A program made the translations under genes and the position numbers. A stretch of 64,000 bases of DNA, from contig NZ_BLAE01000057.1 of the NCBI RefSeq assembly GCF_009687865.1, positions 1 to 64,000 on the forward strand, read 5' to 3'. Positions 6,364 through 63,782 of this stretch are shown here, piece after piece. The stretch is from Acrocarpospora macrocephala (GTDB lineage Bacteria > Actinomycetota > Actinomycetes > Streptosporangiales > Streptosporangiaceae). Below the pieces are notes generated by a model. That model was given only the letters and a program-made list of their open reading frames with translations. It did no database searches and was not told the origin of the DNA. How positions within the stretch are numbered: the first letter of the stretch is position 1; the number at the start of each line of letters is the position of its first letter.

Positions 6364-7841
6364 TGGCGATTGGCCGGGGCACCCTGAGTGTCGTGGCGGG
6401 CGTGCTGGTAGCCGCGCTCGCGATTTTGGGTTACCTGCTGCCTCCGCCGGCATTCGATCCGCCGCCGCTGGTGAAAGCGCCCGCCTTCGAGGAGCTGCCC
6501 GAGCAGCCCGCGTCCGAACGCCGGCCGGTGAGCACCGGCACGCCGATCCAGGTTCAGCGGATCACCGTCCCGGTGCGGGGCGAGGAGCTGAAGGCCACCA
6601 TCCGCGTTCCCACGACGCCCGGCAAGCACCCGGCGATGGTCTTCGTGCAGGGCTCCGGCTCAGGCTCCGGCGACGAGTTCACGAGCCAAGCCGAATGGCT
6701 AGCCAAATCCGGAATTGTCACCCTTTCTTATGACAAGCGGACGGTCGGGTACTCCTTCCGGAACCGGGACTTCGCGCTCCTCGCCGAGGATGCCCTGCAC
6801 ATGATCGACGTGCTGCGCGCCCGTTCCGACGTGAATCCGGCCAAGACCGGCCTGTGGGGCGTCAGCGAAGGCGGCTGGGTGGTGCCGATCGCCGCGGCCA
6901 ACAGCCACGATGTGGCCTATACCGTGCTCGTCTCCTCGCCCAACGTCTCGCCGATGCGCCAGGTCGCGTTCGCGCTGAACGAGCAGCTGGAGCGCCTGCA
7001 CGCGCCGAACGGCGTGCGCGACCTGCTCACCCGCGCGATGGGCGGCGTCGGCTTCGACTTCCTCCGCTACGACAGCGTCCCCGCGCTCAGCCGCATCACC
7101 CAGCCCACGCTCGCGCTGTACGGCACGATGGACCCCTCCATCCCGTTCGTGCAGAGCACCGAGACGCTGATCAACTCCCTCCCGACCAGCAACTACACCA
7201 TCCGCTTCCTGGCCGGGGCCGATCACGCCATGCGGATCAACGGCGGCCGGTTCGTGCCCGACTACCTGCCCACGCTGGCGAACTGGATCCAGAGCCTGCC
7301 GGCGCTGCCGCAGCTGAAGATGGCGGGAGCCACGCCGATCCAGCGCTTCCAGGCCAGCGACGTGCCGGCCGCGCCCTGGTATGGCGGGAGCACCTTCCTC
7401 GGCCTCACCCTCACCCTGGCCGCGGTCGGTTACGTGGCCGCGCCGGTGACCGAGATGATGGTCCGGCTGCGCGGTCGTGACCTGCGGCATCAGACCAACA
7501 TGCAGCTGTGGCCGGCGCTCAGGCGCAGGCTCAGGCGGATGGCCTGGACGGGGCTCGGGCTGCTGGCCGCCGTGCTGGCGTTCATCATGCTGATCGTGCT
7601 GTTCTCGGTGAACCAGGCGGGGGCCTGGCCTGCCGTACAGGCCGGGTGGCTGGTGGTGCGGGTGCTTGCGGTGTTGATCCTGGCGCAGGAGGCGGGCGCG
7701 GTCGGGGCGCTGATCGTCGGGCTGCGGGATGGCTGGCAGCCGTCCCGGTGGCAGAAGGCCACGCTGACCGGCGTGCTGGGCGGCACGGGGCTGCTGCTGG
7801 TTACGGCCGCTTACTACGGTCTGTTCGCATTCCCCTGGTAG
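6363..7841 (+). CDS. Membrane-anchored alpha/beta hydrolase (serine hydrolase)
   Basis: A 492-residue protein. An N-terminal membrane segment (about residues 3-27) is followed by an extracytoplasmic alpha/beta-hydrolase domain with nucleophile elbow GVSEGG (Ser168), Asp257 in YGTMDPSIP and His288 in GADHAM, a complete catalytic triad. Unusually, the C-terminal 120 residues add about four hydrophobic helices (from about 360 to the end). The substrate is unknown; the fold is like acyl-aminoacyl-peptidase/dipeptidyl-peptidase hydrolases. I chose ATG 6363 because GGGAG lies 7 nt upstream; an in-frame GTG at 6294 would add 23 polar residues before the membrane helix and looks wrong. Confidence 0.85.
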   Translation: MAIGRGTLSVVAGVLVAALAILGYLLPPPAFDPPPLVKAPAFEELPEQPASERRPVSTGTPIQVQRITVPVRGEELKATIRVPTTPGKHPAMVFVQGSGSGSGDEFTSQAEWLAKSGIVTLSYDKRTVGYSFRNRDFALLAEDALHMIDVLRARSDVNPAKTGLWGVSEGGWVVPIAAANSHDVAYTVLVSSPNVSPMRQVAFALNEQLERLHAPNGVRDLLTRAMGGVGFDFLRYDSVPALSRITQPTLALYGTMDPSIPFVQSTETLINSLPTSNYTIRFLAGADHAMRINGGRFVPDYLPTLANWIQSLPALPQLKMAGATPIQRFQASDVPAAPWYGGSTFLGLTLTLAAVGYVAAPVTEMMVRLRGRDLRHQTNMQLWPALRRRLRRMAWTGLGLLAAVLAFIMLIVLFSVNQAGAWPAVQAGWLVVRVLAVLILAQEAGAVGALIVGLRDGWQPSRWQKATLTGVLGGTGLLLVTAAYYGLFAFPW

Positions 7842-10444: not shown

Positions 10445-12259
10445 TCAGACCTCCATGGTGACACGTCCGGCGAGGAGCACACCTGCCCCGGCCATTGCCG
10501 CGAGCAGCACGAAGCACAATGCGTAGGCGGCGGACACGGTGAAAATGGCGCCAGTGACGGCGATTGCGACAACGGTCAGCACGGACTCCCCGACAGCGAG
10601 CGACGCACTGTTCTTCCCCTGCTCCCCCGGCTCCGACAATTCCAGAACGAGCACCGACAAGGTCGGATAAACCACGCCGATTCCGAATCCAGCCACCGAC
10701 CAGCCCACGAAAGCCACCCATACTGGCACTTCAGGCACGACGATCGGCGCCGTCACCGCGACTCCGACCGCGATGAGCGCGCACCCGAGCGCAAGAAGAC
10801 GATTCCGCCGGTACGGCTTGCGCCCCTGAATCCACGAACCGAGCGACCAGAACAGCGCGCCCCCAGTGAGGGCGATACCGCCCTGATCGGGTGAAAGGCC
10901 GCGCTCCTCGAACAGCACCAGCGGAATCAGGACCTCAGCGGCGAGAAAGGCACCAGTGGCGATACCGCGCAACGCCACAACAGCCGGAAGCCCTCGGGCC
11001 CCGCGCATCGTCCCCCGGGGAAGCAGCCTCGGCAACGAGACCGCCAGCACCACCAGCCCCGCGACGATCAGCACAACGTTGCTGCCACCACTGCCGTATT
11101 GCAGCAATCCCGCACCGATCGCCGCCAGCACCCCCATCGCCAGCCGAAGCCGAAATCCCCCATCAGCCGTGCTGGCGGCTGCCGACCCGCCCAGCCCGAC
11201 AGCCTCCAGTTCGCCTTCCCGAACACCTTGCCCGACGGCTTCCCGCGCACCTTGCCCGACGGATTCGTCCAGACGTCGCCGCCCGACCTCCGGCCCACCT
11301 TCCTGCTCTACGTCCCCCGCACCCTGCCCGACGGATTCCACCAGACGTCGCCGCCCGACTTCCCGCGCACTTTGCCCGACGGATTCGTCCAGGCGTCGCC
11401 GCCCGGCCTCCGGCCCGCCTTCCCGCTCTACTTCCCGCGCACCTTGCCCGTCGAATTCGTCCAGGCGTCGCCGCCCGACCTCCGGCCCACCTTCCCGCTC
11501 TACTTCCCCCGCACCTTGCACAACGGATCCGTCCAGGCGTCGCCGCCCGACCTCTGGCCGACCTTCTTGGCCGGTTTCGTGGAGGCTTTCCCGGCCGGTT
11601 TCGCGCGTGCTTTCCCACCCGGTTTCGCGCACGGTGGCTTCCTCGGGGTTCTCGTGCTGCGTTGCTCTTCCGTGCCCGGCGAGACCCCGCCAGAGGGCGA
11701 ACACCGCCGGGGCTGCCAGGACCGGAACGGCCAGGAATACCCACCGCCAGCTGAAATGTTCGGTCACGAACCCGGTGATCGCCGGGCCTACCACCGAGGG
11801 AAGCACCCATGCGGCGGCCAGCAGCGAGAACACCCGAGGGTGCGTCGCCGCCGGATAGATTCTTCCGACGAGGACGTAGATCGCGACGTCGAACATGCCT
11901 CCGCCGAAGCCCTGCAGGAATCGCCCGAGCAGGAAGACTTCCATGGTGGGCGCGGCCCCCGCCAGGGTCAGGCCCGCCAGGAAGGCCAGCAACCCCGTCC
12001 ACAGGGGCGCGTCCGGACCCCGTACATCCCCCCACCGGCCGCCCGCCACGGTTGCGATCAACGCGGCCGCGATGCCACCGCTGAAGGCCAGGCTGTACAA
12101 GTGGTGGCCTTCCAGCTCCCGCGCGACGGCGGGCATCGCCGTCGCCACCGCGAGATATTCGAACGCCACCAGCATGAAGAGCGCGACCATACCCACGCTC
12201 AAGGCCCGATATCGCTGGTCGAAGATCTGCGGACGATCAGGGGTAGTCACGGTAGTCAC
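10445..12259 (-). CDS. Major facilitator superfamily exporter with expanded central loop
   Basis: A 604-residue MFS protein of the drug:H+ antiporter type. The first six helices (about residues 20-190) include GGRWGDVRGPDAPLW, the conserved loop 2-3 motif, and FLQGFGGGMFDVAIYVLVGRI. The second six helices run from about 370 to the C-terminus. Between them the normally short cytoplasmic loop is replaced by about 165 residues of charged, repetitive sequence (see the repeat entry). Without it the protein would be near the usual 430. The start is GTG with a second in-frame GTG three codons on. It is downstream of, and in the same orientation as, the VWA/MoxR operon, with 166 bp between. Confidence 0.88.
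   Translation of the reverse strand: MTTVTTPDRPQIFDQRYRALSVGMVALFMLVAFEYLAVATAMPAVARELEGHHLYSLAFSGGIAAALIATVAGGRWGDVRGPDAPLWTGLLAFLAGLTLAGAAPTMEVFLLGRFLQGFGGGMFDVAIYVLVGRIYPAATHPRVFSLLAAAWVLPSVVGPAITGFVTEHFSWRWVFLAVPVLAAPAVFALWRGLAGHGRATQHENPEEATVRETGWESTRETGRESLHETGQEGRPEVGRRRLDGSVVQGAGEVEREGGPEVGRRRLDEFDGQGAREVEREGGPEAGRRRLDESVGQSAREVGRRRLVESVGQGAGDVEQEGGPEVGRRRLDESVGQGAREAVGQGVREGELEAVGLGGSAAASTADGGFRLRLAMGVLAAIGAGLLQYGSGGSNVVLIVAGLVVLAVSLPRLLPRGTMRGARGLPAVVALRGIATGAFLAAEVLIPLVLFEERGLSPDQGGIALTGGALFWSLGSWIQGRKPYRRNRLLALGCALIAVGVAVTAPIVVPEVPVWVAFVGWSVAGFGIGVVYPTLSVLVLELSEPGEQGKNSASLAVGESVLTVVAIAVTGAIFTVSAAYALCFVLLAAMAGAGVLLAGRVTMEV
11210..11629 (-). repeat. In-gene minisatellite, 72/48-bp units, inside the MFS gene
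   Basis: It codes residues 211-350 of the MFS protein. First come three 8-residue units (RETGWEST, RETGRESL, HETGQEG-). Then there are five units beginning V/AGRRRLD: two of 24 residues (237-260, 261-284), one of 16 (285-300), one of 24 (301-324) and one of 16 (325-340). The 16-residue units lack the EREGGPE segment. All unit lengths are multiples of three, so the frame is kept. Confidence 0.9.
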
Positions 12260-13583: not shown

Positions 13584-16393
13584 CAAGCCCTCCCCAGAAT
13601 CGCCAGCACGGTCTTTACGGCCCCAGCGGCCTGGCTCTCGTCATACGTGATCTCTACCGGCGCCGTCGCACCGGAGGCGACCCGAGAGCCGATGGCCCGC
13701 CGTTCCGGCGGCGCGAAGGCCCCGAAGGTACGCCTCAGCAGCGGCAGCACATCAATGAACGCCTCCCCCTGGAGCCCGCTCAGCCACCCGTCCACCATCG
13801 CGAGCAACCGCGCGTCGTGCACGAGCATCAGCCCGCCCCCGGACAGGAACCCTTCGATCCAGACCGCGACCCGAACCGGCGGATGCCCCAGAGACATCGC
13901 CCTCGACATCCGGTCATCAGCGTCATCGATGACCTCGGCGTCGAACAGGATCCGCACGATCCGCCCTTCGATCACGCCCGGCACATCAGCCCGATCGGCC
14001 ACCCCGCGCAACGCCGCCAACCACCTCCCCCTCGGCGATGTGACGGCATAGGCCGCAGAGGAATCCACACTTCTCGACGCCACATCTGAGGACATGTTCC
14101 CGGACGAGATCGCGCCTCCGGACGAGGTCGCGCCTCCGGACGAGATTGCGTCTCCGGACGAAGTCGCGCCTCCAGGCGAAGTCGCGCCTCCAGGCGAAGT
14201 CGCGCCTCCAGGCGAAGTCGCGCCTCCAGGCGAAGTCGCGTTCGTGGTGGCGGGGTCGTCGAGGAGGGTGACCGCTGAGGTCACCGCGTCTATTTGCACG
14301 ACCATTTCGCGGGCGGTGTCGTCGTCCAAACCGGATACGGCAGGAGACAGGCCGGCGCAGCTGCGGGCCAGCAGGGAGGTGACGATCGAGCCGAGACCGT
14401 CGGCGGGGGTGCCGCGGACGTCGCCGTAGCGTTGGGCACGGACGAGGGCGGGCAGGGCGGCCATGAGATGCCGGACGTCGTGGTCGAGCGCCGCCCGGTC
14501 GCCGATGGCCTTCAGCACGTGCGGGAGCGCGTCCGGTAGATCGGCGAGCAGGCACTGCTCGACCAGGCCGGTGAGATCCGCGAGGGCGACGCCCTGGGCC
14601 TCAGCCGCCGGCGAGCCGGGGGTGGGGGAATGGGCGGGCCCGGCGGCGACTTCGCGGATCTTGGTCGTGGCGGCGGACGGGACGGTGATGCCGCAGGCCG
14701 CGGCTTCGATCAGGGTGATGTCGTATTCGGGATGCCATTCGAGGGTCCACGACTCCTTGAAGGTGCCCTTGCCGCGGGTCTCCCGTAAGGTGCCCCAGGG
14801 CACGCCGAGGACGCGCAGGCGGTGCAGCAGCTTGCTGCGGTCCAGGTCCAAGGGTTTGCGGAGGTCCAGATCGTAGTCGCGGGCGAGGGCCTCCGGCTTG
14901 AGGCGCAGGCGCCGTTGTTCCTCGCGCAGGTGCCGTTGCAGCGGGACCATGGGGGTGGCGTCGGGGACATGGCCCAGGCTTTCGCCCACGACGAGCTGCC
15001 GCTGGATCAGTTCGACCGGGAGTTCGTCGCCCTCGCAGAGGACGGCCCTGGCCGCTTCGGTGACCTCGGCCAAGCCCGCGAGGGGCCTGCCGCGCAGGAC
15101 GGCGAGGCTGTTGGCGAGCCGGACCGATTCGATGACATGCGCGGAGGAGACGGGCAGGCCTTCCTCCCGGAGCACGCGCGCGGCCTTGGTCAGCCACCGT
15201 TCGATCGGCTGGACGGGGTTGTCGAACAGATGGTGATACCAGCCAGGCGAGGTGATGCCCGCGCCGTAACCGCTCCAACTGGCCAGCCGTCCATGGGTCC
15301 AGGGCACCCACGTCATCTCCGCCTTGACCTTGGGCAGTCCCCTAAGCACCCGATCATCGGCAACAGCCGTAGTCGCCTGAGTCAGGGCCGGCACATGCCA
15401 CGCGCCGCACACGACGACGATGTTCGTGAAGCCCTCCTTGACGGCCGCCCGAATCGTCCGGCGCATGTACGCCTCCCGCCGGGCCTCATACTCGTCGGGC
15501 GTGTAACCCTCCCGAACAGCCGCCATCGCCTCAGCGATCACCTCGAACGGGGTATCCCCCCGATGCTCGACGGCGTCCTCCCACCAACGCTCCGGATCGT
15601 CATAACCGGCCGCCGCGGCCAGCGCCCCAATCGGATCCACCCGAAACCCAGACCCATCAGCCTCCCGAGAAGCTTCCTCCGAATCCCGCTCCACCGGCCT
15701 GTCCGGGCTGGTCGCGCCCGGGCTACCACGGTCGAGGAGGGGCGCGGCGAGCTCACCTGGGCCACCACCATCGAAGGCGGGGTCAGCGGCCTCACCCGAG
15801 CCACCACTACCACTGCCGGAGGCGGGTACGGCAGCCTCACCCGAGCCACCACCACCGGAAGCAGGCACAACAGCCTCGGCCGAGCCACCACCGCCAGAGA
15901 CGGACACGATCGCCTCACTCAAGCCACCACCACCGGAAGCAGGCACGAGGGCCTCGGCTGGGCCGCCACCGTCGGAGGCGGGTTCGGGGGAGTCTCTTGG
16001 ATCTTCGGGAGTGTCGCCTGGAGTGTCGTGTTGGGGGCGGATGGCCAGGGAGTTGGTTGCGGGGAGGTCGCAGAAGCGGGCGGGGATTGCGGCGTGGGCG
16101 GCGTACTGGAGGGCTTGCCATTCTGGGGAGAAGGTGGCGAAAGGCCAGAACGCCGCTTTGGTGGGGTCGCCGGGGACGTGGGCCAGCAGGGCGACCGGGG
16201 GCTCCATCTCGGGGTCGGCGGCCAGGGAGACCAGGGCGTCGGCTTCGGGCGGGCCCTCGATCAGGACGATGTCGGGGGACAGTCGTTCCAGTTCGGCGCG
16301 GACCGCGCGGGCCGAGCCCGGGCCGTGGTGGCGGACGCCCAGGACGGTCAGGCGCGGCTCAGCTCGCATCGCGGCAGGCCCGGTAGAAGTCAC
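13583..16393 (-). CDS. DUF5682-family protein of the MoxR/VWA operon
   Basis: A 936-residue protein I recognise as DUF5682. The N-terminus has LGVRHHGPGSARAV (His22, His23) and DIVLIEGPPEAD (Glu46); further on is VVVCGAWHVPAL (His333). This H-H...E...H pattern resembles the putative metal site of the TraB/TIKI/EreA-ChaN fold, which would make it a hydrolase; that is inference. Two low-complexity inserts interrupt it: a Gly/Ser/Ala-rich segment (about 137-218) and a Thr/Ser/Pro/Gly repeat (about 716-765). The GTG start at 16393 overlaps the MoxR stop by 35 bp and has GGAAGG 6 nt upstream; an ATG at 16369 has no SD. The C-terminal half (about 780-936) looks like a separate helical domain. Confidence 0.8.
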   Translation of the reverse strand: MTSTGPAAMRAEPRLTVLGVRHHGPGSARAVRAELERLSPDIVLIEGPPEADALVSLAADPEMEPPVALLAHVPGDPTKAAFWPFATFSPEWQALQYAAHAAIPARFCDLPATNSLAIRPQHDTPGDTPEDPRDSPEPASDGGGPAEALVPASGGGGLSEAIVSVSGGGGSAEAVVPASGGGGSGEAAVPASGSGSGGSGEAADPAFDGGGPGELAAPLLDRGSPGATSPDRPVERDSEEASREADGSGFRVDPIGALAAAAGYDDPERWWEDAVEHRGDTPFEVIAEAMAAVREGYTPDEYEARREAYMRRTIRAAVKEGFTNIVVVCGAWHVPALTQATTAVADDRVLRGLPKVKAEMTWVPWTHGRLASWSGYGAGITSPGWYHHLFDNPVQPIERWLTKAARVLREEGLPVSSAHVIESVRLANSLAVLRGRPLAGLAEVTEAARAVLCEGDELPVELIQRQLVVGESLGHVPDATPMVPLQRHLREEQRRLRLKPEALARDYDLDLRKPLDLDRSKLLHRLRVLGVPWGTLRETRGKGTFKESWTLEWHPEYDITLIEAAACGITVPSAATTKIREVAAGPAHSPTPGSPAAEAQGVALADLTGLVEQCLLADLPDALPHVLKAIGDRAALDHDVRHLMAALPALVRAQRYGDVRGTPADGLGSIVTSLLARSCAGLSPAVSGLDDDTAREMVVQIDAVTSAVTLLDDPATTNATSPGGATSPGGATSPGGATSPGGATSSGDAISSGGATSSGGAISSGNMSSDVASRSVDSSAAYAVTSPRGRWLAALRGVADRADVPGVIEGRIVRILFDAEVIDDADDRMSRAMSLGHPPVRVAVWIEGFLSGGGLMLVHDARLLAMVDGWLSGLQGEAFIDVLPLLRRTFGAFAPPERRAIGSRVASGATAPVEITYDESQAAGAVKTVLAILGRA
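14097..14244 (-). repeat. 18-bp tandem repeat inside the DUF5682 gene
   Basis: About eight 18-bp units (plus-strand form CCAGGCGAAGTCGCGCCT with variants) code GGATSP-like hexapeptides; the four units at 14166-14240 are nearly identical. It is in frame with the gene and forms a flexible Thr/Ser/Gly linker of about 50 residues. Confidence 0.88.
15740..15985 (-). repeat. 48-bp degenerate repeat inside the DUF5682 gene
   Basis: It codes about 80 residues built from roughly 16-residue units of the type PASGGGGSGEAAV (residues 137-218). The units are less uniform than those at 14.1 kb. Its position splits the predicted N-terminal catalytic half between its H-H/E and H motifs. Confidence 0.75.
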
Positions 16394-25583: not shown

Positions 25584-25740
25584 CGGTCGTTCAGGCTCGT
25601 AAGTGGGCGAGGACAACATCGACCGGATCAAGAAGGCCTCGCAAGCGCTCGGTCGTTCAGGCTCGTAAGCAGGTGAGAACAACATCAACCGGGCCAAGAA
25701 GGCCTCGCGAGCGCTCGGTCGTTCAGGCTCGTAAGTAGGT
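25584..25740. repeat. 66-bp tandem repeat running into the response-regulator 3-prime end
   Basis: Two full copies (25584-25649, 25650-25715) and the beginning of a third (from 25716) each open with CGGTCGTTCAGGCTCGTAAG. The third copy contains the stop and last codons of the minus-strand response-regulator gene, so the array looks like tandem duplication of the 3-prime end of that gene plus its flank. The period is 22 codons. The 312-bp gap between ALDH and the response regulator holds nothing else apart from the small palindrome at 25424. Confidence 0.88.
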
Positions 25741-26361
25741 GAGGACGGCTAGGACGCGGCGGTGGTCGTCGGGGGCTGGAGGTAGGTCGAGCTTGGTGAG
25801 GATGCCGTTGACGTGTTTGGCGACGGCTGCGTCGGAGATGGCGAGGCGGCGGCTGATCGCGGTGTTGGAGCGGCCCTCCGCCATGAGGGCGAGCACGTCC
25901 CGTTCCCGGGGGGTGAGGCGTTCGAGGGTAGTGCGCAGGCGACGGCGGGTGAGCAGGCGGCGGACCACGTCGGGGTCGATGACGGTGCCCTGGGCGGCCA
26001 CCTGATCGAGGGCGGCGAGGAATTCGGTGACGTCGCCGACGCGGTCCTTGAGCAGGTAGCCGATGCCTGGACCGGTTTCGACGAGTTCGGCGGCGTTGGT
26101 GTGCTCGACGTACTGGGAGAGGATCAGGACGGGCAGGCCAGGGTGAAGGCGGCGCAGCCGCAAGGCGGCGCGTAGCCCTTCGTCGCGGAAGTCCGGCGGC
26201 ATGCGGATGTCGGTGATCACGGCGTCGGGTGTCTCCTGGGCCACGGCGGCGAGCAGTTCAGCCGCGTCGGCGACGGCACGGACGCTGTGCCCGAAGTGGG
26301 TCAGGATATGGGTCAGCCCTTCGCGCAGCAGAGCGGAATCCTCGGCGAGCACTACGCGCAC
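25723..26361 (-). CDS. NarL/LuxR-type response regulator
   Basis: A 212-residue response regulator: receiver domain with acidic pocket EDS (residues 7-9), phospho-acceptor Asp51 in VITDIRMPPD and Lys in YLLKDRVGD, then a LuxR helix-turn-helix (LTPRERDVLALMAEGRSNTA then SRRLAISDAAVAKHVN). The start is GTG 26361, inside the last codons of the histidine-kinase gene (10-bp overlap), so the pair is translationally coupled. It most likely controls the divergent ABC transporter next door. Its 3-prime end is duplicated in the 66-bp repeats downstream. Confidence 0.93.
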   Translation of the reverse strand: MRVVLAEDSALLREGLTHILTHFGHSVRAVADAAELLAAVAQETPDAVITDIRMPPDFRDEGLRAALRLRRLHPGLPVLILSQYVEHTNAAELVETGPGIGYLLKDRVGDVTEFLAALDQVAAQGTVIDPDVVRRLLTRRRLRTTLERLTPRERDVLALMAEGRSNTAISRRLAISDAAVAKHVNGILTKLDLPPAPDDHRRVLAVLTYLRA

Positions 26362-56428: not shown

Positions 56429-56516
56429 CCGACGAGGTTAGGCAGGAGGGCCAGATTGTCTTCCGGGGTTTGACACAAACTTGATCGGCAATCGCCGCAC
56501 CTTTAGTCGTATGTCC

Positions 56517-56542
56517 CGGCTTGGCCGCGCCTGTGTCTGGAC
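56517..56542 (+). repeat. Truncated copy of the structured-RNA 5-prime end
   Basis: The 26 bases here are identical to 56591-56616, the first arm of the structured element described next, but the sequence after it (ACAACCGCACCTTC) is unrelated and the partner arm is absent. It looks like a partial duplication 74 bp upstream of the complete copy. Confidence 0.7.
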
Positions 56543-56591
56543 AACCGCACCTTCTTAACCCGGCCATCACTCCTATCCAGGGCAATCAAGC

Positions 56592-56714
56592 GGCTTGGCC
56601 GCGCCTGTGTCTGGACTGAGGAACGCAGGGTCGCGAAGCGGCCCGGAGTGACGAGGGAAGACACAGGCTGAAGGCGGCCAAGCCCGCCGTGCCGGAGGCG
56701 CGGCCATAGACACA
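56592..56714 (+). ncRNA. Structured RNA-like element, copy 1
   Basis: Four nested or adjacent helices can be drawn. P0 GGCTTGGCCGC (56592-56602)/GCGGCCAAGCC (56674-56684), 11 bp. P1 GCCTGTGTCT (56603-56612)/AGACACAGGC (56659-56668), 10 bp. P2 GGGTCGC-GAA-GCGGCCC (56628-56644). P3 (56686-56704) closed by GGA. The two internal strands are nearly invariant with copy 2 (63632), while P1 has a compensatory T-A to A-T change and P2 an extra G-C pair. A strong hairpin terminator follows directly. No known family is recognised, and there is no ORF of note. The strand is chosen from the terminator orientation. Confidence 0.6.
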
Positions 56715-56752
56715 GAACCCTCGCCGTCGGAGGGGGGAGACGGCGAGGGTTC
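56715..56752. terminator. Bidirectional hairpin terminator between RNA copy 1 and msiK
   Basis: A 14-bp perfect stem GAACCCTCGCCGTC (56715-56728) / GACGGCGAGGGTTC (56739-56752) with a Gly-rich-looking GGAGGGGGGA loop. It is followed by GTTCT on the plus strand and lies 70 bp from the msiK stop on the other, so it can end both transcripts. Confidence 0.8.
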
Positions 56753-56821
56753 GTTCTGAGGGGTTTCGTAAAGCCAGGTTGGTGGCCGCCCCCCGCCGGA
56801 CTGGCGGGGGGCGGACGTTCT

Positions 56822-58042
<1,221 letters not shown>

Positions 58043-61045: not shown

Positions 61046-62143
61046 TTACTCGGCAGCGCTCGCGCGGCGACGGCGAACCGCGATCAGGGTTCCGGTCACG
61101 CCGGCGGCGAGCAGACCCCCGCCGACCGCGGCCACGGCGCCGACCGGCGCTCCGGTCCACGGCAGCGTGGCGGCGGCGCCGCCCCCGCCCCCGCCACCGG
61201 AGGCCACTTGGCGCCCGCGGCCGCCGGCCCAGCCGAGATCCCCGGCGTCGGCGAAGTCACCGGCGTCCATGAGGTTGCCGAACTCCTGGATGTCGCCACG
61301 ACCCCACTGGTGCCCGTGATCCCCGTGCTCGCCGTGATCACGATCCCCGTGCCCGAAGTGATGACCGTGCCGACCGTGGTCATCGCGGCCACCGTGGTCG
61401 CCGTGGTCGCCCCCATCCAGCACGATGTGATCGCTGCGGTCGCTGTGATCGAGCTGATCTCTGCCATCCGTGTGGAGCACGTTGGTCCCGCGAATCACGT
61501 TGCCCCGCTGCCGATCGAAGCTCTCGCGCCGATCGAAGCGCTCGCGCTTACGGTCGTTCACGCGCTGATCGACGGATTGACGCTGATCGTTGTCCTGGCG
61601 TTGATCGTTGTCAATGCGGATGTCGGTTCTGTTCTTGTTCTTGTTGTCGTTGTCGACGTCGTTGTCGTTGTCGTTGTCGTTATCGTTATCGTTGTCATTG
61701 TCGTTGTGGTGCTTGTGACACTTGTGAACGAGCTTGGTGATGCACGGGTGCGGCACCGGCGGGTCGCCCAGCTCTTCGCCGTCCTCGTAGCCGGACTCGT
61801 AGCCCGCCAGGAAGCCCGCCCGGAAGCCGGCGGCGTAGGCCAGCGCGCCGGGCGGCACGATCGGGGCCGCGTTGGTGCCCCCGGTCCCCGTCGCGTTGGC
61901 GGCCGCGGCCGCCCGGCCGGCCAGCCAGCCGATGGTGTAACCAGCGGCGTAGCCGTCCGCGTAGCCCTGCTCGAACGTGGGAGGTTGGGGTGGGTACGGC
62001 TGGGCGATCGCCGCCGCCAGATACCCGCTAGTAGGTGGTACCGCCGCGCTCGAAGCGAGCGCGGTGGCGTTAAGGGACAGTCCGCTGAGAGCGACGCCGA
62101 CGGCCGCCCCCAGCAGAAGAGTGAACTTACGTTGTGCGGCCAT
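61046..62143 (-). CDS. Surface protein with Asn-Asp repeat, His/Asp-rich region and LPWTG sorting signal
   Basis: A 365-residue exported protein, family unknown. It has a signal peptide (1-32), then Gly/Tyr/Ala heptad-like repeats (QGYADGYAAGYTIGWLAGR, AAGFRAGFLAGYESGYEDGE). Next is a Cys/His cluster (CITKLVHKCHKHH, about 134-146), an uninterrupted Asn-Asp dipeptide repeat (147-162), Asn/Lys/Gln/Arg-rich repeats and a His/Asp/Gly-rich region (about 225-290). It ends with LPWTG (327-331), a hydrophobic helix and RRRR, the classic sortase signal. The His/Asp content suggests metal binding (inference). It is cotranscribed with DUF4012 downstream. No sortase is in the window. Confidence 0.8.
   Translation of the reverse strand: MAAQRKFTLLLGAAVGVALSGLSLNATALASSAAVPPTSGYLAAAIAQPYPPQPPTFEQGYADGYAAGYTIGWLAGRAAAAANATGTGGTNAAPIVPPGALAYAAGFRAGFLAGYESGYEDGEELGDPPVPHPCITKLVHKCHKHHNDNDNDNDNDNDNDNDVDNDNKNKNRTDIRIDNDQRQDNDQRQSVDQRVNDRKRERFDRRESFDRQRGNVIRGTNVLHTDGRDQLDHSDRSDHIVLDGGDHGDHGGRDDHGRHGHHFGHGDRDHGEHGDHGHQWGRGDIQEFGNLMDAGDFADAGDLGWAGGRGRQVASGGGGGGGAAATLPWTGAPVGAVAAVGGGLLAAGVTGTLIAVRRRRASAAE
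61640..61710 (-). repeat. Hexanucleotide microsatellite coding Asn-Asp
   Basis: On the plus strand GTTGTC (and GTTATC) is repeated about ten times with one GACGTC break. It codes the Asn-Asp run of the LPWTG protein. Six-base units keep the frame, so slippage would change the repeat length only. Confidence 0.88.
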
Positions 62144-63134: not shown

Positions 63135-63632
63135 ATGGACAGACAGCGCGCCATGCGCAGCACCACCGCCGCGGCCGTGCTCACGATCGCGGCTCTAGGT
63201 TCGGCCCCGGCGCTCGCCGAGAGCGAACCTGAGCGGATCGGAGCGCAGCAGAACGGCGAGTCGCAGGTTCACTACGGCACCTGGCGGACCACCGCCAAGC
63301 AGATCTACCGCCCGGCCCGCGAGATCCGTACCAACGACGTCAAGGCCTTCGCGTCGCAACTGGTCAGCCGGCGGCTCTGGTCACCCGTCCAGTTCCGCTG
63401 CCTGGACAGCCTGTGGACCCGGGAGAGCAACTGGAACCACCGCGCCTACAACCGCTCGTCAGGCGCGTACGGCATCCCGCAGGCGCTACCCGGCCACAAG
63501 ATGGGCCTGGTGGCCTGGGACTGGCGATTCAACCCGGCAACCCAGATCCGCTGGGGGTTGAGATACATCAAGGGCCGATATGGCTCACCATGTGGTGCGT
63601 GGGGGCACTTTAGGTCGCACAATTGGTATTAG
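63135..63632 (+). CDS. Secreted lytic transglycosylase-like protein
   Basis: A 165-residue exported protein: signal peptide ending ALA (28), a short linker, then a transglycosylase/Rpf-like C-terminal fold: LDSLWTRESNWNHRAYN (putative catalytic Glu97), SGAYGIPQALPGHKMG and NPATQIRWGLRYIKGRYGSP followed by CGAWGHFRSHNWY. This matches the small actinobacterial proteins annotated as aggregation-promoting-factor or SLT-like, which cleave peptidoglycan. The ATG has GAAGGGAG about 4 nt upstream. Its stop TAG at 63630 ends on the first base of the second structured-RNA copy. Confidence 0.87.
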   Translation: MDRQRAMRSTTAAAVLTIAALGSAPALAESEPERIGAQQNGESQVHYGTWRTTAKQIYRPAREIRTNDVKAFASQLVSRRLWSPVQFRCLDSLWTRESNWNHRAYNRSSGAYGIPQALPGHKMGLVAWDWRFNPATQIRWGLRYIKGRYGSPCGAWGHFRSHNWY

Positions 63633-63740
63633 CGAGGGCGCGCCAGTGTCTGGACTGAGGAACGCAGGTCGCGAAGCGGCCGGAGTGACGAGGGAAGACA
63701 CTGGCTGAAAGCGACCGAGCCGCCGTGCCGAAGGCGCGGC
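63632..63740 (+). ncRNA. Structured RNA-like element, copy 2
   Basis: Same architecture as copy 1. P0 GCGAGGGCGC (63632-63641)/GCGACCGAGC (63711-63720) is weaker, with a possible tandem G-A pair. P1 GCCAGTGTCT (63642-63651)/AGACACTGGC (63696-63705), 10 bp perfect. P2 GGTCGC-GAA-GCGGCC (63667-63681). P3 (63722-63740) closed by GAA. The internal strands CTGGACTGAGGAACGCAG and CGGAGTGACGAGGGAAG are identical to copy 1. It begins at the transglycosylase stop codon, so it may be a 3-prime UTR element or a separate RNA. Confidence 0.6.
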
Positions 63741-63782
63741 AATAAGCGAAGAGAACCCAGGGGAAGGGGTCCCTCTTCGGTG

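Follow-up and report, generated by a model that had tools for sequence, protein, structure and literature searches.

The question raised by this locus is whether two similarly folded elements on its plus strand belong to a structured RNA or to a repeat of the DNA itself. The window, by which we mean the whole stretch of 64,000 nucleotides analysed here, contains copy 1 at 56592-56715 (+) and copy 2 at 63633-63748 (+), with a mean column identity of 87% over 153 columns including flanks. The first-pass annotation had proposed that both copies have the same helices, and their alignment bears this out for P0, P1, P2 and P3. The double change described in P1 is likewise real, copy 1 having GCCTGTGTCT/AGACACAGGC and copy 2 GCCAGTGTCT/AGACACTGGC, such that T-A is replaced by A-T on both arms. 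P2 reads GGGTCGC-GAA-GCGGCCC in copy 1 and GGTCGC-GAA-GCGGCC in copy 2, which confirms the additional G-C pair reported for copy 1, and the single-stranded inner segments GGACTGAGGA and GACGAGGGA are indeed the same in both. Allowing up to 3 mismatches, the window has two occurrences of the 21-mer CGGAGTGACGAGGGAAGACAC, where 0.01 would be expected. When copy 1 is folded jointly with its following hairpin, the energy is -107.4 kcal/mol (z -9.3), a value that none of 200 dinucleotide shuffles reached.

Layout of the two copies and their surroundings

The element is approximately 115-130 bp long and consists of two hairpin modules on one strand, P0-P1-purine inner loop-P2 followed by P3 and a short unpaired tail. 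In copy 1 the fold pairs the P0 5′ arm GGCTTGGCCGC (56592-56602, +) with the 3′ arm at 56674-56684, and the P1 5′ arm GCCTGTGTCT (56603-56612, +) with the 3′ arm at 56659-56668. Between the arms of P1 lie the conserved inner strand GGACTGAGGA (56613-56622, +), the P2 hairpin (56623-56649, +) with its apical GCGAAGC, a C-GAA-G triloop, and the second conserved inner strand GACGAGGGA (56650-56658, +). The P3 hairpin GCCGTGCC-GGA-GGCGCGGC (56686-56704, +) closes on a C-GGA-G triloop, and is succeeded by the unpaired 3′ tail CATAGACACAG (56705-56715, +); P3 has a comparable tail behind it in numerous other copies and in other genera. The inverted repeat formed by P0 does not include P3 or its tail, hence the two ends of the element are unlike. 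Copy 2 is a 116-bp insertion immediately after the TAG stop at 63630-63632. Its length and parts were checked: P1 is formed by 63642-63651 with 63696-63705, P2 by 63662-63686, P3 by 63722-63740 and the tail by 63741-63748, all on the plus strand. Copy 2 scores 114.6 bits with our covariance model R1, the window copies being among the model's own building rows.

The hairpins directly after both copies had been taken for terminators of the element, a claim that fell on comparison with sister genomes, as these hairpins belong to the neighbouring genes and are present also without the element. That behind copy 1 (56716-56752, -) lies outside the element, behind an ABC-transporter ATPase gene (56822-58042, -), and the same or a similar hairpin is found in G001 and G003 without the element. 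Behind copy 2, the same or a similar hairpin is present at the element-free site of G001, G002 and G003. A simple scan found no plus strand terminator behind either copy; its only terminator-like site follows gene 56822-58042, on the minus strand. Terminator hairpins were therefore rejected as parts of the element. No sigma-70-like promoter was found at copy 1 or copy 2.

Several other repeats were observed nearby. A solitary left piece lies upstream of copy 1 (56517-56542, +), 26 nt of which are identical to positions 2-27 of the BLAST query. Ahead of it, at 56487-56516, is a left module of the form GG(T/C)AACC-CCGCACC-TTAGTCGTATGTCC (or GGCAACC, GGTAATC), also found at L003, L004, L007, L014, L015, L022, L028 and L032. 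About ten copies of this genome have it in front of the element, as do copies elsewhere in the genus. L001, L002 and L009 are longer composites in which the left arm is repeated. Elsewhere in the window, 66-bp direct repeats (CGGTCGTTCAGGCTCGTAAG...) stand in a row at 25584-25746, two of them full and the third only begun, whilst tandem repeats at 11212-11667 and 14082-14261, with spacings that are multiples of 24 and 18 bp, are probably coding low-complexity sequence. An ORF at 61046-62143 (-) contains a long alternating Asn/Asp run (NDNDNDND...) and an anchor-like C-terminal end.

Copy number, host range and insertion polymorphism

A BLAST search with copy 1 against the whole 12.1-Mb Acrocarpospora genome returned 55 matches (E up to 10, fragments included). 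Matches of at least 60 nt fall at 35 distinct places, counted from the BLAST listing with the place on contig C53, which matches on both strands, entered once. An RNA gene of two copies or of a single locus was rejected on account of these 35 places and the empty sites in sister genomes. Three further members, L043, L044 and L045, form a short subfamily with only piecewise BLAST matches. Their P2 is minimal (GCGAAGC or GCGGAGC only) and they differ mainly in P0 (GGCTGC, GGGTGC, GGATGC), with a matching 3′ arm in each. Four units lie head-to-tail at C9:17452-17903, solitary left-arm pieces or pieces of P3 plus tail are found by BLAST elsewhere in the genome, and L033 and L034 are decayed copies in which both helices and inner strands are affected. 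Tandem arrays with a period of 114-115 bp were found in Streptosporangium pseudovulgare; in this genome (G009) many arrays sit on few contigs (C11, C12, C13, C14, C22), and two P2 types occur within one array. A second interspersed repeat of Acrocarpospora has the form GGGCGGAGCCCG...AACAAA...GGTGGGACAA, and the left flank of L029 alone has about 30 further matching places in G001.

Matches to the element were obtained in 19 of 60 genomes by BLAST, or 15 of 60 without G012, G020, G029 and G050, whose matches are short and probably due to chance. All five genomes of the genus gave matches (source genome counted), as did 13 of 32 further genomes of the same family, about ten of them convincing by the reader's judgement, and outside the family there was one short match. 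A search for both inner strands, matched exactly and separated by a spacer of 8-38, recovered at least 116 stretches in the named genome collection, for which about 0.06 chance matches are expected if all bases are taken as equally frequent (our own calculation). In four genomes with 84 matches to the forward pattern, a near-identical pattern in reverse order produced none. Genera among the matches listed were Streptosporangium, Acrocarpospora, Nonomuraea, Herbidospora, Planomonospora, Microbispora, Actinomadura, Thermomonospora, Kribbella, Actinophytocola, Virgisporangium, Catellatospora, Gordonia, Williamsia and Rhodococcus, which we take to belong to several actinomycete orders. Inspection by eye did not reveal P0 or P3 in members from Actinophytocola and Gordonia, and the class-wide part is thus P1, the inner loop and P2. 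The covariance-model search of related actinobacterial genomes that the first-pass annotation had suggested was carried out with R1, built from 66 rows. Under stricter filters, and with no more than 12 candidates scored in each genome, this search placed the element in 16 of the 295 class genomes that are at least 95% complete; 13 of the 16 are from the same family.

The absence of a named family, as had been supposed, agrees with our Rfam searches, which gave no match in the window at the gathering score. At 12 loci with members from other genomes the single match was a tmRNA gene outside the element. Below the threshold, 8 weak matches fell within 56450-56800, 6 of them beginning at or after 56708 on the neighbouring hairpin. 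At locus L300 of Thermomonospora echinospora (6367-6738, -; 6924-6984, +) a copy lies approximately 190 bp from the tmRNA gene. Copy 1 had no BLAST match in phages or plasmids and the exact core had none in viral contigs, hence a phage or plasmid origin was rejected. The open literature, to which the search was confined, yielded no paper on the core sequences as actinomycete repeats, the letter matches being eukaryote papers by their titles. Nor did the open literature on related repeats yield anything on such an actinomycete repeat, and the sections of PMC3733652 consulted mention neither actinobacteria nor Streptomyces.

Comparison with sister genomes shows the element to be polymorphic for insertion. 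At the copy 2 site G001, G002 and G003 read ...TAG|AAGAGAACCC, where the Acrocarpospora genome has 116 additional bp. The empty junction is TAG|AAGAG and one base (G) is shared, giving a duplication of at most 1 bp; the upstream reading frame ends at this TAG. G004 has a P3-like hairpin only at this site. The copy 1 site is occupied by a differently built family member in G002 and by another repeat in G001 (L105), similar to the second interspersed repeat described above, and no element was found there in the stretches from G003 and G004. For 14 further copies we searched G001 and G002 with the two flanks joined; 13 of these copies entered the 25 comparisons that were aligned (L029, and L011 in G001, were left out). 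Sites L005, L012, L016 and L044 are element-free in G001, as are L005, L006, L010, L011, L013, L016, L017, L018, L019, L043, L044 and L045 in G002. Occupied in G001 are L006, L010, L013, L019, L043 and L045, with shortened copies at L017 and L018, and the L012 site of G002 is a rearranged composite.

A closer look at the joins distinguishes two kinds. Those of L044 in G001 and G002 and of L045 in G002 are clean or nearly so, whilst at the element-free sites of L005, L006, L010, L011, L012, L013, L016, L019 and L043 several junction bases differ and there is no clean join. Target duplication at the clean sites is at most 1 bp for copy 2 and at most 3 bp for L045, and none was seen at L044, where a 2-nt difference lies just within the right flank. 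The inserted ends are CGAGGG...ATAAGCG in copy 2, CCGTGAGG...AATCA in L044 and GTGAGG...GACGCG in L045. Presence also varies in the gap between the ribosomal protein genes rplW and rplB, which was searched in 29 genomes and read in 25: G002, G003 and G036 have the complete element there and the other 22 of the 25 do not, with a shortened relative in G016. A match to a MITE or REP family, with terminal inverted repeats and target duplications, had been named beforehand as what would speak against an RNA. A mobile repeat is what was found; its P0 is an inverted repeat that leaves P3 and the tail outside, and its clean sites have no long target duplication.

Covariation and the strand that folds

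From 182 candidates, 124 were retained because their sequence was unique and 7 or more of the 10 P1 positions paired, a filter that favours P1 pairing. Of these, 92 have a P2 between 21 and 31 nt long; the exact-pattern search supplied 51 and another genome set 41. All 92 plus the two window copies make up a 94-row alignment. A smaller alignment, A2, has 66 rows, namely the window copies and 64 of the 92 chosen by hand with several less regular ones omitted; the wobble counts, the energy counts and model R1 were all based on this set. In the exact-pattern rows the inner strands and the innermost P1 letters are forced by the search, so the many invariant columns of the inner strands are partly a product of it (51 of 94 rows).

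Covariation over tens of copies, which the first-pass annotation had asked for, is strong. The 94 members contain 489 cells changed on both sides and still paired, compared with a shuffled mean of 167.4 (0 of 500 shuffles as high) and 83-163 when partners were slid. Paired cells amount to 78.8% vs 62.9% in shuffles, and the covariation score is 0.324 vs 0.104 shuffled and 0.047-0.080 slid; the corresponding values for the first, hand-picked 66 members are 81.6%, 346 double-change cells and 0.344. Pairing is highest in P1 (92.0%; both-side changes at 9 of 10 pairs), followed by P3 (84.5%; 8 of 8 pairs), P0 (77.9%; 10 of 11 pairs) and the two parts of P2 (65.7% and 59.8%), within which there are conserved non-standard G-A and A-G pairs. 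Moreover, in 85 occurrences found without any demand for pairing, P1 beyond the searched pattern was paired in 522 of 595 cells, compared with a mean of 341 and a maximum of 370 over 500 trials in which the 3′ arms were dealt at random. The helices drift with pairing kept, as in CTCCCGTTCT/AGAACGGGAG of Kribbella and GCCTGTTTCT/AGAAACAGGC of Herbidospora. The excess of double changes over the shuffled and slid controls therefore indicates that the folded strand is under selection. The original argument, that compensatory change speaks for selection on RNA and not for a DNA repeat, survives in its first half only as selection on a folded strand, seen over 94 members; its second half does not, as the element is an interspersed, insertion-polymorphic DNA repeat.

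Individual double changes have to be read with care. The copy on contig C53 carries an inversion confined to the part lying between the P1 arms. Orthologous copies also differ by whole modules: P3 is GATCC/GGATC in L010 and GTGCC/GGCGC in its G001 orthologue, and P0 is GGCTGC/GCAGCC in L043 and GGGTGC/GCACCC in its orthologue from G001. The inversion and these module differences are DNA-level events. Because both arms of P3 or P0 differ together, some double changes need not be two mutations, and as exchange with another copy can alter both sides of a pair at once, single double changes are worth less, though they are not worthless.

The plus strand is the more stable of the two in 63 of 66 members, with RNA energies and with DNA energies alike. 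G-T outnumbers A-C in P1 (29:5) and P3 (18:6) over the 66 members; it does not in P0 (13:19), and the two are near-even in P2 (26:24). Hairpins of RNA usually prefer GNRA or UNCG tetraloops, and the P2 caps comprise one GNRA and no TTCG. What is common instead is C-GNA-G with any N, capping 65 of 125 unique P2 and 64 of 86 unique P3 hairpins, with C-GCCA-G on a further 3 and 2, respectively. The complementary C-TNC-G was not found among the P2 caps or among the 86 unique P3 loops. About half of the P2 hairpins have another cap or none assigned by the simple loop finder. A GNA or GNNA loop on at least two G-C pairs is the rule given, in the sections consulted, for extraordinarily stable DNA mini-hairpins, the GCGAAGC fragment melting at up to 78 °C (PMC4686876). 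The loop part of this rule holds for the P2 and P3 hairpins capped by GNA or GNNA. These caps favour, rather than prove, single-stranded DNA; the DNA reading is taken from the literature, as the energy parameters used give GNA loops no bonus for DNA or RNA.

Gene context was classified with genes called by third-position GC content and not curated: 130 sites lie between genes, 17 inside a predicted ORF and the others were not classifiable. Between co-directional genes the element is in sense at 59 sites and antisense at 28 (n = 87, two-sided p = 0.001). A further 30 of the 130 lie between convergent and 13 between divergent genes, and both groups were left out of the orientation test because flipping the element leaves them unchanged, which sets aside a tally of 89:41 that had included them. 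The Acrocarpospora genome alone gives 12 sense and 7 antisense at co-directional sites with the stricter gene calls. A cruder count of this genome had looked random ((-,-) 10, (-,+) 10, (+,+) 7 and (+,-) 2 over 29 rows, tandem copies counted separately), and the 59:28 count is preferred to it as it uses stricter gene calls and one row per site. Copy 1 is itself antisense to both neighbouring genes. Scarcity between divergent genes fits promoter avoidance. The sense bias could stem from selection on RNA or from insertion into the lagging-strand template, a behaviour of IS200/IS605 elements, whose transposition is reportedly coupled to replication.

Readings of the element and comparison with known systems

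We searched the genomes for an enzyme that might move the element. The Y1 transposase model PF01797 matched 7 of 10 carriers and 2 of 6 genomes without a BLAST copy, and the reverse transcriptase model PF00078 matched 7 of 10 and 1 of 6, respectively; G016, which has the shortened relative, is among these six. Neither model matched in the carriers G003, G031 and G036, where a divergent RAYT below the reach of PF01797 is possible. None of 24 Y1 loci, taken with about 1.5 kb on each side where the contig allows, contained the element by R1. Neither enzyme is thus supported as an obligate partner, both being unmatched in those three carriers.

On balance, we lean towards the reading that both window copies belong to a new family of REPIN/ERIC-like mobile repeats, folded and non-autonomous, whose plus strand is read as single-stranded DNA by an enzyme from elsewhere. 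Recognition as single-stranded DNA by some enzyme is probable. The element would move while its plus strand is single-stranded during replication or repair; this strand would fold into the hairpin modules, and the enzyme, supplied from elsewhere, would recognise their shape together with the GGACTGAGGA/GACGAGGGA inner loop. Recognition of this sort may explain why the helices covary and why the caps are of a DNA type.

A structured RNA that acts in the transcripts of neighbouring genes (in 3′ untranslated regions and operon gaps) or as a small RNA, with RNA selection keeping the helices and transposition being secondary, would account for the strong covariation, the conserved inner strands, the better folding of the plus strand and the surplus of G-T over A-C in P1 and P3. 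It would also suit the sense orientation at 59 of 87 co-directional sites (p = 0.001), yet 28 of these 87 are antisense, 13 of 130 sites are between divergent genes, and copy 1 opposes both of its neighbours. Sister genomes have empty sites, including in the rplW-rplB gap, the window copies have no promoter-like site and no terminator-like site on the plus strand, the caps seldom take the tetraloops usual in RNA (1 GNRA and 0 TTCG in P2), and the element has no Rfam match at the gathering score; we consider this reading unlikely. The sense bias would equally suit a SINE-like retroelement, in which RNA of the plus strand folds, and a conserved 3′ tail resembling ATCAACACAG serves as a primer or as the recognition site for a reverse transcriptase before the copy is inserted. 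A similar unpaired tail does stand behind P3 in several genera and PF00078 matched in 7 of 10 carriers vs 1 of 6 genomes without a BLAST copy. However, carriers G003, G031 and G036 have no such match and the clean sites have no long target duplication, which leaves this account improbable.

Equally hard to sustain is a double-stranded DNA repeat, a protein-binding or cruciform site, in which template-switch repair and gene conversion keep the palindromes and the folded strand is not selected. The inversion in C53 and the module differences between orthologous copies are what such a repeat would produce. However, the loops, the balance of G-T and A-C in P1 and P3 and the folding energy all indicate one strand, and the conserved inner strands are asymmetric. 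Equivalent strands predict as many C-TNC-G as C-GNA-G caps, whereas P2 has 0 vs 65 and no C-TNC-G was found among the 86 unique P3 loops.

The preferred reading, a mobile repeat recognised as folded single-stranded DNA, has a bolder form that we put forward tentatively, as a possibility we rather doubt. The family would extend across several actinomycete orders and be recognised and moved as a folded single strand whose conserved inner loop has a three-dimensional shape of its own. The enzyme responsible would be distinct from Y1 transposases and integron integrases alike, and the element might also have a further role within 3′ untranslated RNA. If true, this would be another kind of structure-read single-stranded mobile DNA beside IS200/IS605-REPIN and attC cassettes. 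The element is widespread in antibiotic-producing actinomycetes, where it sits in operon gaps and, in some species, between rplW and rplB. It joins strong helix covariation with mobility, and covariation alone is thus no proof of RNA. It also offers a system in which to seek the mobilising enzyme by asking which protein binds the folded plus strand.

Small mobile repeats with known mechanisms have been described mostly from proteobacteria. REPs are repetitive extragenic palindromes moved by RAYT transposases. The present element resembles REPIN and REP sequences in being short, extragenic, dispersed, hairpin-forming, non-autonomous mobile DNA. Compensatory changes are called common in REPINs, themselves mobile DNA, in the sections of PMC3116915 consulted, and the solitary P3-tail and left pieces recall the REP singlets and doublets described in parts of PMC3116915 and PMC3733652. 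Unlike REPINs, which are two inverted REPs, the element consists of two unlike hairpins with a conserved purine inner loop. A GTAG or CGTC tag is absent from its clean insertion ends (copy 2, L044, L045) and, in contrast to the REPIN/RAYT system, the element is missing from the 24 Y1 loci and PF01797 is unmatched in three carriers. ERIC sequences are about 127 bp long, intergenic and non-autonomous, form a stable stem-loop, and have TA ends and TA target duplications, according to the portion of PMC2759123 consulted. The element is like them in length, intergenic position, hairpin formation and lack of autonomy, but copy 2 has no TA ends and at most 1 bp duplicated, and its hosts are actinomycetes rather than enterobacteria. 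It is unlike a classical MITE in having no long target-site duplication at clean sites.

MIRUs are short actinobacterial repeats that occur in tandem, in operon gaps near stop codons and mostly in sense, and going by this general description the element is similar as a short, tandem actinobacterial repeat in operon gaps. The hairpin design and inner loop seen here are not known from MIRUs. The attC sites, as described in parts of two papers, are recognised as single-stranded DNA through their structure, their sequence being little conserved (PMC2727003), and a RYYYAAC consensus is named for them (PMC8632094). By that description they resemble the element as proposed here, a single strand that would be read by its structure; in attC, unlike here, the site is not itself the inserted unit. 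As the element is of REPIN/ERIC character, yet has neither GTAG/CGTC ends, RAYT neighbours nor TA duplications, we would place it beside these systems as a structured, non-autonomous mobile repeat family of actinomycetes.
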